Below, one piece after another: positions 13,539 to 18,404 of a DNA stretch of 18,404 bases. The notes under the pieces are model-generated. The model was not told where the DNA came from. It saw only the letters and a list, made by a program, of their open reading frames with translations, and did no database searches. Position 1 is the stretch's first letter. The number at the start of each line of letters is the position of its first letter. The position numbers and the translations under genes were made by a program. The stretch spans positions 1-18,404 of the forward strand of contig DYEF01000013.1 of the NCBI GenBank assembly GCA_020725805.1, written 5' to 3'. The DNA comes from Bdellovibrio sp. (GTDB lineage Bacteria > Myxococcota > SpSt-1050).

Positions 13539-13820
13539 CTATTTTTTCAGATGCGGATTGAGTACTTCCTGTGCCGCGTTCTCCTCTACACAGGTGGCTG
13601 TGTTGTCTTCATTGTAATTGCAGCGCTTTATAACAGATTTCCCTTTGTCGCAGCTGGTGCCAAGAATAACATAATTGGCACAATCTCCCTCCCAGTATGT
13701 AAAATATGCATAGTCTTTTTCCCATCTGGTATGGGTTATGCTTCTGACCGTTGTGCTGCAGGCCGATATAAGTATTGCAAGGGATAAAATTATAAAAATT
13801 ATTTTAATGGTCTTTTTCAT
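13539..13820 (-). CDS. Small lipoprotein, fourth of a tandem set
   Basis: The 93-residue precursor has signal peptide MKKTIKIIFIIL..., lipobox LISAC and lipidated Cys21. The mature part has four further Cys at 47, 57, 67 and 77, exactly 10 residues apart. The last two form the C-x9-C pair that aligns with the pairs in the three sister proteins. It ends LNPHLKK, comparable to the NPRSLY end of its neighbour. GGGAGGA is a strong ribosome binding site. The gap from the preceding gene is 15 nt, and the terminator lies downstream. No known family is recognised. Location is predicted as periplasmic face of the outer membrane or cell surface. Confidence 0.82.
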   Translation of the reverse strand: MKKTIKIIFIILSLAILISACSTTVRSITHTRWEKDYAYFTYWEGDCANYVILGTSCDKGKSVIKRCNYNEDNTATCVEENAAQEVLNPHLKK

Positions 13821-13835
13821 ATCTTCTTCCTCCCG

Positions 13836-14111
13836 TTAATACAGTGAACGTGGATTTACATTTTCGAGGATGAGGGTATCCTTGCAGTTCTCCTCCTTGT
13901 TTGCCTGATTGAGGGTGCAGATGCGGATATAATAGTCAAAGAGTCTTACCTTGTTTTTGTCGGAACCTACTGTCTGTGCCTTCGGAAGCATCAGGAGTTT
14001 TGCCGTCTTGTTTTCACCCATATATTCGTTGGCAATCAGGACTTTTTTGGGGGCACAGGAAACTGCAAATAAAGCAGCGGTTAGTATAGCTAAAATCAAT
14101 ATACGTTTCAT
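13836..14111 (-). CDS. Small lipoprotein, third of a tandem set
   Basis: The 91-residue precursor has lipobox FAVSC and lipidated Cys19. After the Cys comes APKKVLIA, similar in pattern to the sisters (basic pair then aliphatic). Cys65 and Cys76 form a C-x10-C pair inside a strand-like YYIRIC...C segment, and the chain ends ENVNPRSLY. The AAGGAGGAG ribosome binding site is strong. The gene lies 12 nt after the preceding gene and 15 nt before the next. No known domain is recognised. It is probably a small beta-rich, disulfide-bonded envelope protein, which is an inference. Confidence 0.82.
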   Translation of the reverse strand: MKRILILAILTAALFAVSCAPKKVLIANEYMGENKTAKLLMLPKAQTVGSDKNKVRLFDYYIRICTLNQANKEENCKDTLILENVNPRSLY

Positions 14112-14123
14112 ATTTGCTCCTCC

Positions 14124-14417
14124 TTATCTGACATTGGATGAAACATTCATAGTGGCCGTCGGGCAGCTGATATCCGTCTTGCCGTCGCAGGCCCTTTCAC
14201 AGGATATATTGTCATTCTTCTCTTCGCACATCCAGAATTCGTGAACGGCCGAACCCGGAAAGATTATGTAGTGGGTTGTCTTGTAGGTCTGGAAATTCAT
14301 TATAGGTCTTGTTGCGTGGTCATCTGCTCCGATAATACGGCGGCTTGTGCAGCCGGCAAGACCCAGAGCCGTAAGAATTGCTGCAATAAGTAACAAAATA
14401 ACTATTCCTTTTCTCAT
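14124..14417 (-). CDS. Small lipoprotein, second of a tandem set
   Basis: The 97-residue precursor starts at ATG 14415-14417. This start is chosen because AGGGAGGT lies just upstream and a signal peptide begins there; the frame is open farther upstream (to 14492) but that part overlaps the preceding gene. Lipobox LAGC gives lipidated Cys23, followed by TSRRIIG. Cys64 and Cys73 make the shared C-x8-C pair in FWMCEEKNDNISC, and Cys77 and Cys85 follow. The gap from the preceding gene is 13 nt. No known family is recognised. Confidence 0.82.
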   Translation of the reverse strand: MRKGIVILLLIAAILTALGLAGCTSRRIIGADDHATRPIMNFQTYKTTHYIIFPGSAVHEFWMCEEKNDNISCERACDGKTDISCPTATMNVSSNVR

Positions 14418-14430
14418 GGCAGACCTCCCT

Positions 14431-14658
14431 TTATTCCTTGAGTTCGACTTTAATGTTGCGGCAGTTTGATAAAGCGCCGTTCTGGGCAACATCGCACTTG
14501 ATTAATCCCTGTTCGTCATCATCATCCCAGATGAATTTTACGACACCCTGTCTGCCTGTTGAACCCACGATCAGTCTTGGCCCTGCACAGGCGGATAAGA
14601 CCGAGAGCAGGAAAATCAGTAATAAAAGCGAAACTATAACCTTTTGAAACCTTTTCAT
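14431..14658 (-). CDS. Small lipoprotein, first of a tandem set
   Basis: A 75-residue precursor starting at ATG 14656-14658, with AAGGAGGT 6-8 nt upstream. The frame continues upstream to 14751, but that part is not signal-like. Lipobox LSAC gives lipidated Cys24. The mature part, only 51 residues, has AGPRLIVG after the Cys, an acidic WDDDDEQG turn and the Cys55/Cys66 pair (C-x10-C), ending KVELKE. As first gene of the operon it lies 102 nt downstream of the shared 33-nt element. No known domain is recognised. Confidence 0.8.
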   Translation of the reverse strand: MKRFQKVIVSLLLLIFLLSVLSACAGPRLIVGSTGRQGVVKFIWDDDDEQGLIKCDVAQNGALSNCRNIKVELKE

Positions 14659-14760
14659 GCCAATACCTCCTTGGTTATGTCTGAAAATATTGTATATATG
14701 ATTATTGCTGCAGGATTGCATATAGTTGAGTTTTTCTCTATCAGATACCACAAAATTATT

Positions 14761-14793
14761 AAATCACCCCTTATGGGTATTTTATGGGTATTT
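14761..14793 (-). promoter_or_regulatory. Shared 33-nt regulatory element, copy 1
   Basis: Read on the minus strand toward the lipoprotein operon, the element comprises AAATACCC, AAAATACCC and GGGGTGATTT: two direct half-sites and one inverted. It matches 27 of 33 positions, without gaps, to 18062-18094 and has the same orientation relative to the downstream genes. It is 102 nt upstream of the first lipoprotein and 226 nt upstream of the divergent kinase. The best candidate binder is the LuxR-type response regulator encoded at 17438, an inference. Confidence 0.65.
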
Positions 14794-14814
14794 CTATGCT
14801 TACAGGTGTTCTGT

Positions 14815-14890
14815 GAGCTGTAAAACAGAATGTAACTGCAACATAAAAATGTTACATTTCTGTTTTGGAACAACAGAGCCGTAAAACAGA
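14815..14890. repeat. Direct and inverted repeats in the kinase upstream region
   Basis: A 15-nt direct repeat, GAGCYGTAAAACAGA, occurs at 14815-14829 and 14876-14890 with one mismatch. Between the copies, TGTAAC (14831-14836) and GTTACA (14851-14856) form an inverted repeat extended by CAGAA/TTCTG. TCTGTT (14859-14864) pairs with AACAGA (14872-14877). The layout suggests binding sites for a dimeric regulator of the kinase gene. The remainder of 14891-15019 shows nothing clear. Confidence 0.5.
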
Positions 14891-15019
14891 TTTGACAATA
14901 GACCGGTTTCCTGATAATTGGAAGGCCGCTCAGGCGGGTAGCAGACTATTAGGTATAATCGGTAATGTCAGTTAAGCTTATGTCGCATTGAAAATCTAAA
15001 TATAAACAGCAAAATTCTT

Positions 15020-17419
15020 ATGCCCAAGTTAAATAAAGGCAGAATATTGATATATTTTCTATTTGGTTTGAATATCACAATCACTGTACTGGGTTTCTTT
15101 TCGCTTCTCTCTTCTCCCTATACAGGTATCAGAACGGCAATAGAGAACGAATCTGTGGTGATTAAGGTCGACAGGAATAGCCCTGCAAAACTGGCCGGAT
15201 TACAGGATAGGGATATATTACTTGACGTAGAGAATCTGAAAATTCCTTTCTTTACCTTTAGTCCGGACCCTGATTATGTGAGCGACAGGAAGGATTACGA
15301 TCTCATTTGGGAATCACTGATACGGTTGGGAGATGTTGTTAAACTGAATGAGTCTGTGAATATTACGGTAAAGCGGGGGTCAGAAACCCTCTCTTTTTCG
15401 GTTGTGCCTGAGCATTTCAGTTTATTCGGGGTGATAAAACGGACACTGCCTGTATATATTGTTGCGTGGTCGTTTATGATAACGGCTTTTCTGGTTTTAA
15501 GGAAGAAGTCCAATGACATCTCTGTTGCGAATTTCATAGTTGGTACAGGTGTCTGTGCAAGTTTTGCAGCACTGGCTTCATATACCGTACGCGACCTCTA
15601 TTTCCCCTATATAGCGTTCAGGATTCTCAAGGAGGCAAATTACCTTGGTGCATTGTCTTCTTCTTTCGCTTTTTTGCACCTGATTCTGGTCTTTCCGAGG
15701 AAGAAGAAGATCGCAGAGAGGTATCCGTGGATTACCGGCGGTGTCTATCTGGTTCTACTGCTGGTATTGCTTGCGAACTATACAGGCCTATTCAGTAATA
15801 TGCATCTGACGTCATATCTGCCGATCAGTCTCTGTCTGATAACCTTTGTTCTTCTTCTAGTCATAGATTTCTTCAGGGAGAAGGATGTTGTATTCAGAAG
15901 GCAGATACAGTGGGTTGTCTTTGGGTTTTCTGCCGGGCTTCTTGCATGGCTCATCTTTACATCTGTACCTGTTCTATTCGGAGCCCCCATACTGTCGGAG
16001 GAGATAGCGCTCCTGCCTTCGATTGTCATTCCGCTCAGTTTTGCGTTTGCGATAACCAGATATAAACTGATGGATATAGGTACGATTTTCGATTACATAG
16101 TGATTTACGGTATGACGATACTGATACTTCAGGGGATAGAACTGACATTTCTTGGTGTAGTATCTCCTTATATCAGTGCATATATGGGACGGGCTCCTAT
16201 TATATCTGTTGTTGCCGTACTTCTGATTGTCTTTCTGTATATCCCTATAAGAAATACGGTCAAGAGAATGACCGAGAGATTCTTCAAAAGAGGCACATAC
16301 GATATCGACAGGGAAATAATGCGGTTTAATATGGAACTTAGTCTTTCTGAAGAGAGACTGCCGTTTGAGAAGTATTTTATATTTGTCAGAAATCTTATAG
16401 GTAGTTCCGGCTGTATAGTCCTCCTGAATGGCAGACAATTGATCTATTCGGATTCCGAGGGCACGGCTCTGATGGGTCTGAGACTTGCCCAAAATGAACA
16501 TGTGGCAGAATATCTTTCAAAACTCAGAGAGCAAGTTTTCGGTTTCGAAATAATCGATGAGGGACTTGCGCTGGACGATTCACTCAAAGGTGCACTCTTC
16601 GTCCCTGTAAGTACTTCAAAGGAATTCTATGTTGTGATATTTCTGGAAAAATGGAACAACACACCTTATTCTAAAAAAGACAGGAGTCTGATAGGTGCCC
16701 TCTCATTGAACCTGTCCCAATTGCTGGAAGTCGAGCGGCTTAGAATAGAGAAATCGGCACTCGAAGAGGAACTCAGAAGTCAGAAAAACCATATCCTGAA
16801 GGAGATGCACGACGGTCTTGGCAGCATACTGACTCATATTATTGTGGCTTCGCAGGTAGCAAGCGGTAGTCTGAACAAGGAGAAGGATGCGGAAAAGGTC
16901 AGAAATATGATCGAGATAATACATAATCACTCGCGGGAAGCAATGGATTTTATGAGAGTAGGTCTCTTGCTTCTGGAGAATCCCGAAAGCACCGTCGGAA
17001 CCATTGTATCCGGGTTCAGGCACAGATACAGAAATACGCTTCAGTCCTATGGTATAAGTGCAGAATATTTCGTTGATAAGGATGTTGAATCCGAATATCT
17101 GGGGGCAAGAGAAAATCTCAATTGTATCAGGTCTGTTCAGGAGGCTGTCAATAATATTCTGAAGCACTCAGGAGCAGATAAGATAGAGATGCATTTTACA
17201 AAGCAGGGGAATAACCTGAATATCACCATAAAAGACAACGGAAGGGGATTTGATGTAGTAAAAACGGGGAGCGGGTCGGGACTAAGAAACATAAAGGAAA
17301 GGATGTCGGAGATAAAAGGTTCTTTCGAAATAAAATCATCAATCGGAACCGGCACCGAACTTCTGCTCACAATACCCTTAAAATCACCGGTTGTGGTTAT
17401 GGATAACCGTTCTGTTTAG
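15020..17419 (+). CDS. Multi-pass histidine kinase with periplasmic PDZ-like domain (NarX/DegS type)
   Basis: The 799-residue sensor kinase has a membrane helix at about 10-30, a PDZ-like extracytoplasmic domain at about 31-130 (VIKVDRNSPAKLAGLQDRDI, later VNITVKRG), and roughly eight or nine further membrane segments from about 139 to 410. A GAF-like cytosolic region (about 415-570), a short coiled coil, and a HisKA_3 dimerisation helix with His597 in EMHDGLGS follow. The HATPase domain has N-box Asn711 and G1-box Asp739 (DNGRGF), then GSGSGLRNI. The HisKA_3 type pairs with LuxR-type regulators such as the next gene, 18 nt downstream. No Shine-Dalgarno sequence precedes the ATG, yet the membrane helix begins right after it, so the start is likely correct. 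The PDZ suggests sensing of exposed peptide termini in the periplasm, by analogy with DegS protease. Confidence 0.93.
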   Translation: MPKLNKGRILIYFLFGLNITITVLGFFSLLSSPYTGIRTAIENESVVIKVDRNSPAKLAGLQDRDILLDVENLKIPFFTFSPDPDYVSDRKDYDLIWESLIRLGDVVKLNESVNITVKRGSETLSFSVVPEHFSLFGVIKRTLPVYIVAWSFMITAFLVLRKKSNDISVANFIVGTGVCASFAALASYTVRDLYFPYIAFRILKEANYLGALSSSFAFLHLILVFPRKKKIAERYPWITGGVYLVLLLVLLANYTGLFSNMHLTSYLPISLCLITFVLLLVIDFFREKDVVFRRQIQWVVFGFSAGLLAWLIFTSVPVLFGAPILSEEIALLPSIVIPLSFAFAITRYKLMDIGTIFDYIVIYGMTILILQGIELTFLGVVSPYISAYMGRAPIISVVAVLLIVFLYIPIRNTVKRMTERFFKRGTYDIDREIMRFNMELSLSEERLPFEKYFIFVRNLIGSSGCIVLLNGRQLIYSDSEGTALMGLRLAQNEHVAEYLSKLREQVFGFEIIDEGLALDDSLKGALFVPVSTSKEFYVVIFLEKWNNTPYSKKDRSLIGALSLNLSQLLEVERLRIEKSALEEELRSQKNHILKEMHDGLGSILTHIIVASQVASGSLNKEKDAEKVRNMIEIIHNHSREAMDFMRVGLLLLENPESTVGTIVSGFRHRYRNTLQSYGISAEYFVDKDVESEYLGARENLNCIRSVQEAVNNILKHSGADKIEMHFTKQGNNLNITIKDNGRGFDVVKTGSGSGLRNIKERMSEIKGSFEIKSSIGTGTELLLTIPLKSPVVVMDNRSV

Positions 17420-17437
17420 TGATAGGGGGAAAGTATT

Positions 17438-18058
17438 ATGAAGATTGTAATTGTGGAAGATGATTCGCTTGTCAGGGAGAATCTGAAAATATTACTTGGC
17501 GGCGAGAGAGATATCGAGATTGCCGGAGCCTATTCTTCGGCCGAGGAGGCACTCCCCGTGCTGAAAGAGATCAGTCCCGATATTATTCTGGTTGATATAG
17601 GGTTGCCGAAAATGAGCGGAATCGAGCTGATTAGGGAGAGCAAGTCTCTTCTCCCCGATGTGGAGATAATGGCCTTTACGGTCTTCGAGGATAAGGATAC
17701 GGTATTTGCTGCACTCAAAGCCGGTGCGACAGGATATATACTAAAAGGCGCTACTCCAAGGGAACTCGTCGAAGCCCTGCATAACTTATATGAAGGCGGC
17801 TCGCCGATGAGTCCGCGTATTGCAAGGGCAATTATTATCGACCTTCAGGATGCAAATGACGAACAGTATTTACTGAGCGCAAGAGAGAAGGAGATTCTCT
17901 CCGATGTCGAAAAGGGTCTCTCCTATAAGGAGATCGCCGTCAGACTGAATATAAGCCCTTCTACCGTTCACTCACATATCAAGAAGATTTACAGAAAACT
18001 TCACGCCAAGAGCCGCAAAGAGGCGTTTCTGAAGGCAAGGCGAAAAGGGATCTTGTAA
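17438..18058 (+). CDS. NarL/LuxR-family response regulator
   Basis: The 206-residue DNA-binding regulator has a receiver domain with Glu7-Asp8-Asp9 acidic pocket, phospho-acceptor Asp53, and Lys in YILKG. The C-terminal LuxR helix-turn-helix begins LSAREKEIL and includes GLSYKEIAVRLNISPSTVHSHIKKIYRKL. It is the cognate partner of the kinase immediately upstream and probably co-transcribed. AGGGGGA serves as ribosome binding site. The 33-nt element begins 4 nt after its stop. A second copy lies upstream of the kinase and the divergent lipoproteins. The regulator may therefore bind both sides of its own operon. Confidence 0.96.
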   Translation: MKIVIVEDDSLVRENLKILLGGERDIEIAGAYSSAEEALPVLKEISPDIILVDIGLPKMSGIELIRESKSLLPDVEIMAFTVFEDKDTVFAALKAGATGYILKGATPRELVEALHNLYEGGSPMSPRIARAIIIDLQDANDEQYLLSAREKEILSDVEKGLSYKEIAVRLNISPSTVHSHIKKIYRKLHAKSRKEAFLKARRKGIL

Positions 18059-18061
18059 GGG

Positions 18062-18094
18062 ATTTACCCTCAAAATACCCATTGGGGGTGATTT
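18062..18094 (+). promoter_or_regulatory. Shared 33-nt regulatory element, copy 2
   Basis: The element has ATTTACCC, AAAATACCC and GGGGTGATTT at the same spacing as copy 1 at 14761-14793, with 27/33 identities. It lies 3 nt after the response regulator stop and 141 nt before the downstream lipoprotein. A TATTAT box at 18115-18120 is a possible -10. The sequence can also fold as AAAATACCC against GGGTGATTTT, so a terminator role is an alternative. The copy upstream of the divergent lipoproteins has no gene to terminate, which favours an operator. Confidence 0.6.
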
Positions 18095-18124
18095 TGTAAT
18101 CCGAATACCGGTGGTATTATTCTG

Positions 18125-18146: not shown

Positions 18147-18239
18147 ATGATAAGAAGTGCTGAATTAAAAGACAGCGGATTTGAAATATGGGGGGATTTT
18201 ATGCTTTTTATAATTTCTTCCAAAGGAGGTATTTTATGA
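18147..18239 (+). CDS. Possible 30-residue leader ORF coupled to the lipoprotein gene
   Basis: ATG at 18147 has AAGGAG (18135-18140) 6 nt upstream. The 30 codons start MIRSAELKDSGF and end SSKGGIL. The TGA stop at 18237-18239 overlaps the lipoprotein ATG at 18236 in an ATGA junction. The ORF spans the lipoprotein's own AAGGAGGT site, so its translation would affect that of the lipoprotein. There is no known family. Its own ribosome binding site and exact stop/start overlap favour a real coding or regulatory leader, but chance is possible. Confidence 0.45.
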   Translation: MIRSAELKDSGFEIWGDFMLFIISSKGGIL

Positions 18240-18404
18240 AGAAGATTTTTGTATTACTCACATCACTTGTTCTGGCATTTGTAATTTTTGCAAATTGCGG
18301 CGAGGATGAAAAGAAGGAAGTAACGATTACAGCGGCTCAGAAGGAGTCTGCAAAGGGAGTAGTAACCAAGGTAAGCTCTCTTAAGACTGTCAAGACCAAT
18401 CCCG
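18236..18404 (+). CDS. Lipoprotein, 5' part only (cut by window end)
   Basis: The visible 56 codons start MKKIFVLLTSLVLAFVIFANCGED. A basic start, hydrophobic stretch and Cys21 form a lipobox-like FANC; Asn before the Cys is uncommon but tolerated. The mature part begins with a Glu/Lys-rich stretch, EDEKKEVTITAAQKES. AAGGAGGT lies 5 nt before the ATG. The gene is downstream of the second 33-nt element and probably belongs to the same regulon as the four lipoproteins. It does not obviously belong to their C-x(8-10)-C family in the visible part. Confidence 0.75.
   Translation, partial: MKKIFVLLTSLVLAFVIFANCGEDEKKEVTITAAQKESAKGVVTKVSSLKTVKTNP

Follow-up and report, generated by a model that had tools for sequence, protein, structure and literature searches.

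A paired element around a kinase/NarL-type regulator operon as a predicted operator for the adjoining lipoprotein genes in Bdellovibrio sp.

Autogenous or local control by NarL/FixJ-family regulators through clustered half-sites is well known. NarL and NarP recognize the heptamer TACYYMT (PMC4886647), the NarL output domain binds as a dimer to inverted heptamers, with TACCCCTAAAGGGGTA as an engineered site (PMC4549865), and direct repeats are also used by NarL (PMC7380067). In this study, we analyzed a window of 18,404 nucleotides, an entire contig of a Bdellovibrio sp. assembly, in which two copies of a conserved element enclose an operon for a sensor histidine kinase and a NarL/FixJ-family response regulator. 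Judging from the sequence and the genome comparisons below, we consider it probable that the element is the operator of the regulator encoded between its copies and that the adjoining lipoprotein genes, left and right, are under its control.

The element pair and the genes around it

The genes and elements of the locus are as follows.

13539 to 13820, minus strand: small lipoprotein 4, 93 aa
13836 to 14111, minus strand: small lipoprotein 3, 91 aa
14124 to 14417, minus strand: small lipoprotein 2, 97 aa
14431 to 14658, minus strand: small lipoprotein 1, 75 aa, opening the left unit downstream of element a
14755 to 14793, minus strand: element a, predicted operator copy ahead of the four lipoprotein genes, AAATACCCATAAAATACCCATAAGGGGTGATTTAATAAT
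15020 to 17419, plus strand: sensor histidine kinase, 799 aa, with an N-terminal TM segment, a weak PDZ match (37-128), several TM segments, HisKA_3 (His597) and HATPase
17438 to 18058, plus strand: NarL/FixJ-family response regulator, 206 aa, with receiver Asp53 and a GerE DNA-binding domain, predicted to bind the element
18062 to 18100, plus strand: element b, predicted operator copy that separates the regulator stop codon from the following lipoprotein gene, ATTTACCCTCAAAATACCCATTGGGGGTGATTTTGTAAT
18236 to 18404, plus strand: lipoprotein gene downstream of element b, truncated where the contig ends

The 33-nt elements, AAATACCCATAAAATACCCATAAGGGGTGATTT (14793-14761, minus strand) and ATTTACCCTCAAAATACCCATTGGGGGTGATTT (18062-18094, plus strand), are identical at 27 of 33 positions without gaps, and the coordinates and strands first given for them were verified. 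Extended outward, the conserved block comprises 39 nt (14755-14793 and 18062-18100, 31/39 identical), ends in GGGGTGATTTnnTAAT and has the consensus AwwTACCCnnAAAATACCCATnnGGGGTGATTTnnTAAT; beyond it the flanks of the two copies are unrelated. In element a, two 11-mers stand in perfect tandem, AATACCCATAA (14771-14792), and element b starts 3 nt past the regulator stop codon. Such a likeness is above the level of chance: a 33-mer pair with at least 27 identities appeared in none of 48 dinucleotide shuffles of the whole window, shuffling the two intergenic regions 1500 times never gave a 27/33 match, and among 1035 real intergenic pairs of this genome the only one to reach 27/33 is a different, unrelated true repeat. 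In addition, the flanks of four other NarL-type operons of the genome reach only 21-22/33.

The lipoprotein genes on both sides, four on the left and one on the right, read away from the operon. Each copy of the element lies between the operon and these outward-facing genes and reads toward the lipoprotein unit downstream of it, in agreement with the original prediction. The prediction also spoke of two lipoprotein units, which holds for the four genes on the left; the right-hand unit is one partial gene only, because the contig end cuts the gene that begins at 18236.

The four small lipoproteins (13539-14658), alike in size and in their conserved lipobox Cys, are possibly old paralogs, and a relative of the second was found in only three other genomes of 97. 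The last 141 nt of the window (18264-18404), inside the right-hand lipoprotein gene, are identical to the terminal 141 nt of contig C4 (L065 12381-12521), also inside a lipoprotein gene; the two copies differ in their signal-peptide starts and upstream DNA, and the shared end looks like a repeated lipoprotein gene where the assembly broke. On contig C95, a block starting TTTTTTGACAAACAAAAACGGA recurs at a distance of about 1.3 kb in two upstream regions (L055 ~16510-16545 and ~17810-17845), with 31-32/33 identical positions; one copy is ahead of a lipoprotein-like gene, and the pair represents a promoter block in repeat. The fitting composition of the window and a MazG 69% identical to that of a genome of the same genus ruled out a foreign or contaminating contig.

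Domain searches placed both operon products in the proposed families. The kinase carries HisKA_3 and HATPase domains above gathering score, which makes it a HisKA_3 sensor kinase, and the regulator carries Response_reg (3.6e-24) and GerE (4.4e-18), both above gathering score, as a NarL/FixJ-family member. NarL is its best PDB match (1a04, E 1.8e-29); against the NCBIfam NarL equivalog it scores 134.3 bits, far short of the cut-off of 250, and so does not qualify as NarL itself. Between element a and the kinase gene, positions 14805-14880 contain a strong hairpin, AAAACAGAATGTAAC ... GTTACATTTCTGTTTT (z -4.4), together with a 15-nt direct repeat, GAGC(T/C)GTAAAACAGA, at 14815 and 14876; this region is possibly an operator or a terminator for the kinase promoter.

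The three half-sites claimed for each copy were recovered in both elements; two of them form a direct pair with an 11-bp offset, and the third is inverted. Their scores against the NarL heptamer are listed below.

14784 to 14790, minus strand: element a, half-site 1, TACCCAT, 7/7
14773 to 14779, minus strand: element a, half-site 2, TACCCAT, 7/7, 11 bp from half-site 1
14765 to 14771, plus strand: element a, half-site 3, inverted, CACCCCT, 6/7, one base from half-site 2
18065 to 18071, plus strand: element b, half-site 1, TACCCTC, 5/7
18076 to 18082, plus strand: element b, half-site 2, TACCCAT, 7/7
18084 to 18090, minus strand: element b, half-site 3, inverted, CACCCCC, 5/7

Half of the six half-sites thus match TACYYMT in full and the others at 5-6 of 7 positions, against a background in which 0.055% of the 7-mers of this genome score 7/7. 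The layout of element a is TACCCAT-N4-TACCCAT-N1-AGGGGTG. Inverted heptamers two bases apart, the 7-2-7 arrangement of NarL, were not present, the best fit being one base apart. The half-sites fit the expected target of a NarL/FixJ regulator, and we read the motif as a NarL-like site rather than a NarL site because of the one-base spacer in place of two and because the regulator falls below the NarL equivalog cut-off. This reading depends on a C-rich motif that might serve other regulators too. Just downstream of element b, at 18104-18118, lies a small palindrome with TACC/GGTA half-sites, AATACCGGTGGTATT, possibly a further weak site.

Distribution within the genome and among relatives

The original prediction had proposed a genome-wide search for the pattern. 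In the assembly searched (3.29 Mb, 97.9% complete), elements a and b are the sole matches to the core TACCCnnAAAATACCCATnnGGGGTGA at up to three mismatches; the element is therefore not a dispersed repeat, and a generic repeat was ruled out. Less specific patterns gave more matches: the inverted pair alone, at two mismatches, had twelve further matches compared with eight for a reversed control, and the three half-sites alone (a 14-base pattern), at two mismatches, had five, all of them within ORFs. The regulon seems confined to its own neighborhood.

A sister genome of the same genus keeps MazG and the four lipoprotein genes in the same order, and the two lipoproteins compared directly are 79% and 67% identical. 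Beyond the lipoprotein genes, where the window has the kinase/regulator operon, this genome has unrelated genes, among them putative TadE-like ones, judged from the translations. It has no ortholog of the kinase, and the element is missing both from the upstream region of its lipoprotein genes and from the whole genome. Since operon and element are both missing while the lipoprotein genes are kept, the element goes with the operon and not with the lipoproteins. This contrast is supportive, not conclusive, because it comes from one sister genome and the upstream region is rearranged there. Each computational check suggested with the original prediction and carried out here favors the reading as a cis-acting site of the regulator: the element is unique, is no generic repeat, and is absent together with the kinase and regulator where the lipoproteins stay; regulator binding itself is still a prediction. 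Taken together, the predicted operator lies upstream of its putative targets, is confined to the putative regulon and co-occurs with the regulator, the co-occurrence being judged in one sister genome.

No second genome with this kinase was found among 195 genomes of the phylum, nor any close relative of its sensor half in the phylum, and a search of the genome contigs gave one partial match only. Full-length relatives of the kinase are remote (21.8%), located on Pseudosulfitobacter plasmids next to a regulator. The closest regulator relatives, in three genomes with a GC content of 0.66-0.70, are without such an element. A NarL-type pair that adjoins MazG in another relative is not orthologous (31%). 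The sole 3-mismatch match to the element among 193 relatives lies inside a 980-aa ORF, and by our estimate one or two such matches are expected by chance.

Predicted mode of action and alternative explanations

Two suggestive promoter matches were noted at the same offset downstream of the elements.

18112 to 18120, plus strand: possible extended -10 downstream of element b, TGGTATTAT
14743 to 14735, minus strand: counterpart downstream of element a, TGATAGAGA

They share TGN followed by a hexamer, TATTAT on the right and TAGAGA on the left, and a good -35 box is absent from both lipoprotein promoters. If the TGN-hexamer is the -10, the inverted pair is centered near -44, an activator position; if the conserved TAAT that closes the block belongs to the -10, the element lies between -35 and -10 and would be a repressor site. 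We lean weakly toward activation, because neither promoter has a good -35 and the inverted pair would lie near -44 under the TGN-hexamer -10. Contig C4, away from the operon, carries another copy of the right-hand lipoprotein gene; its promoter is of the form TTGACT-16-TAAAAT and the element is lacking there, in keeping with a replacement of an ordinary promoter by the element.

As predicted from the protein families, a signal received by the membrane sensor kinase would lead to phosphorylation of the regulator at Asp53, which would free the GerE domain and allow it to dimerize. The dimer would then bind the inverted pair TACCCAT-N1-(A/G)GGGGTG, the outer TACCC half-site, 11 bp or about one helical turn further out, would add a third contact, and the bound regulator would control the left four-lipoprotein unit and the right lipoprotein gene. 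This model is weakened by the inverted-pair spacer of 1 as against 2 in NarL and by a third half-site that scores only 5-6/7. The mechanism would be an ordinary one; it is well supported, and the case is unusually clean for a prediction from sequence alone.

First, the element might be the operator of another transcription factor that controls the lipoprotein genes, its place around the operon being incidental. This seems unlikely: the genome does hold many response regulators (37 matches to the regulator query) and the tie between element and regulator is itself predicted, yet the only two genomic copies flank this very operon, the sister genome without the operon lacks the element as well though it retains the lipoprotein genes, and a global regulator would have more sites. 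Second, the kinase and regulator could form a recently acquired cassette with its own operators at both ends, one that takes over the flanking genes at any landing site. In that event it would here have replaced the promoters of resident lipoprotein genes, which have other promoters in the sister species and at another locus; we regard such an origin as doubtful.

Third, we think it very improbable that the copies are the terminal inverted repeats of an inserted kinase/regulator cassette with transposon-like ends. Like such repeats, they stand in inverted, outward orientation at the two ends of a 3.3-kb segment, one that the sister species lacks; however, no transposase gene lies between them, the genome has no further copy, no target-site duplication is visible beside the ends, and the internal tandem 11-mers and NarL-type half-sites would be left unexplained. 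Fourth, an intrinsic terminator is slightly more improbable still. Copy b, with a terminator-like score, follows the regulator stop by 3 nt and could fold into a GC hairpin (predicted at -15.3 kcal/mol) with UUUU behind it, but the z-scores of the folds reach just -1.45 (b) and -1.17 (a), near those of shuffles, the copies pair differently, copy a has no preceding gene on its strand to terminate, and a terminator does not need 27/33 sequence identity. Copy b alone may have a secondary terminator role. An RNA element was rejected, as there was no Rfam match and the folds were near shuffles. Finally, chance similarity or a functionless remnant of a duplicated promoter region is scarcely credible: there are only two copies, with conservation seen in one genome, but the shuffle and real-intergenic controls speak against it, and conservation limited to the half-sites and the A-tract amid unrelated surroundings is the pattern of selection and not of a recent duplication.

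If the operator reading is true, an uncharacterized sensor kinase of a poorly studied lineage would gain a defined operator, regulator and target set. The regulon would apparently be limited to two neighbors and hence easy to test with reporters, and it would provide a first handle on the signals that the small lipoproteins answer to. Furthermore, the presence and absence between two species of one genus offers a compact case of local regulon gain or loss.

Comparison with described systems

This kinase, these lipoproteins and this arrangement of sites appear to be undescribed, and several known systems resemble parts of the locus. Among the envelope-type LuxR/NarL systems, LiaSR and VraSR come near it, as the kinase weakly matches the LiaS and UhpB models and the PDB matches of the regulator include VraR; in contrast to these systems, the kinase here has a PDZ match and a many-TM sensor half, and all the matches are below curated cut-offs. 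The E. coli NarL/NarP sites (TACYYMT, 7-2-7) are similar in that TACCCAT is fully consensus and that an inverted pair is combined with a further direct half-site (PMC4886647, PMC4549865, PMC7380067); the element differs from them by the single-base spacer of its inverted pair and by a fixed direct repeat at 11 bp. AgrR of Cupriavidus (PMC7380067) is an OmpR-family regulator with the half-site ATTACA in a 6-4-6 arrangement, and in these respects it differs from the regulator and element described here, yet its site follows the same plan, an inverted pair accompanied by an imperfect direct repeat in helical phase.
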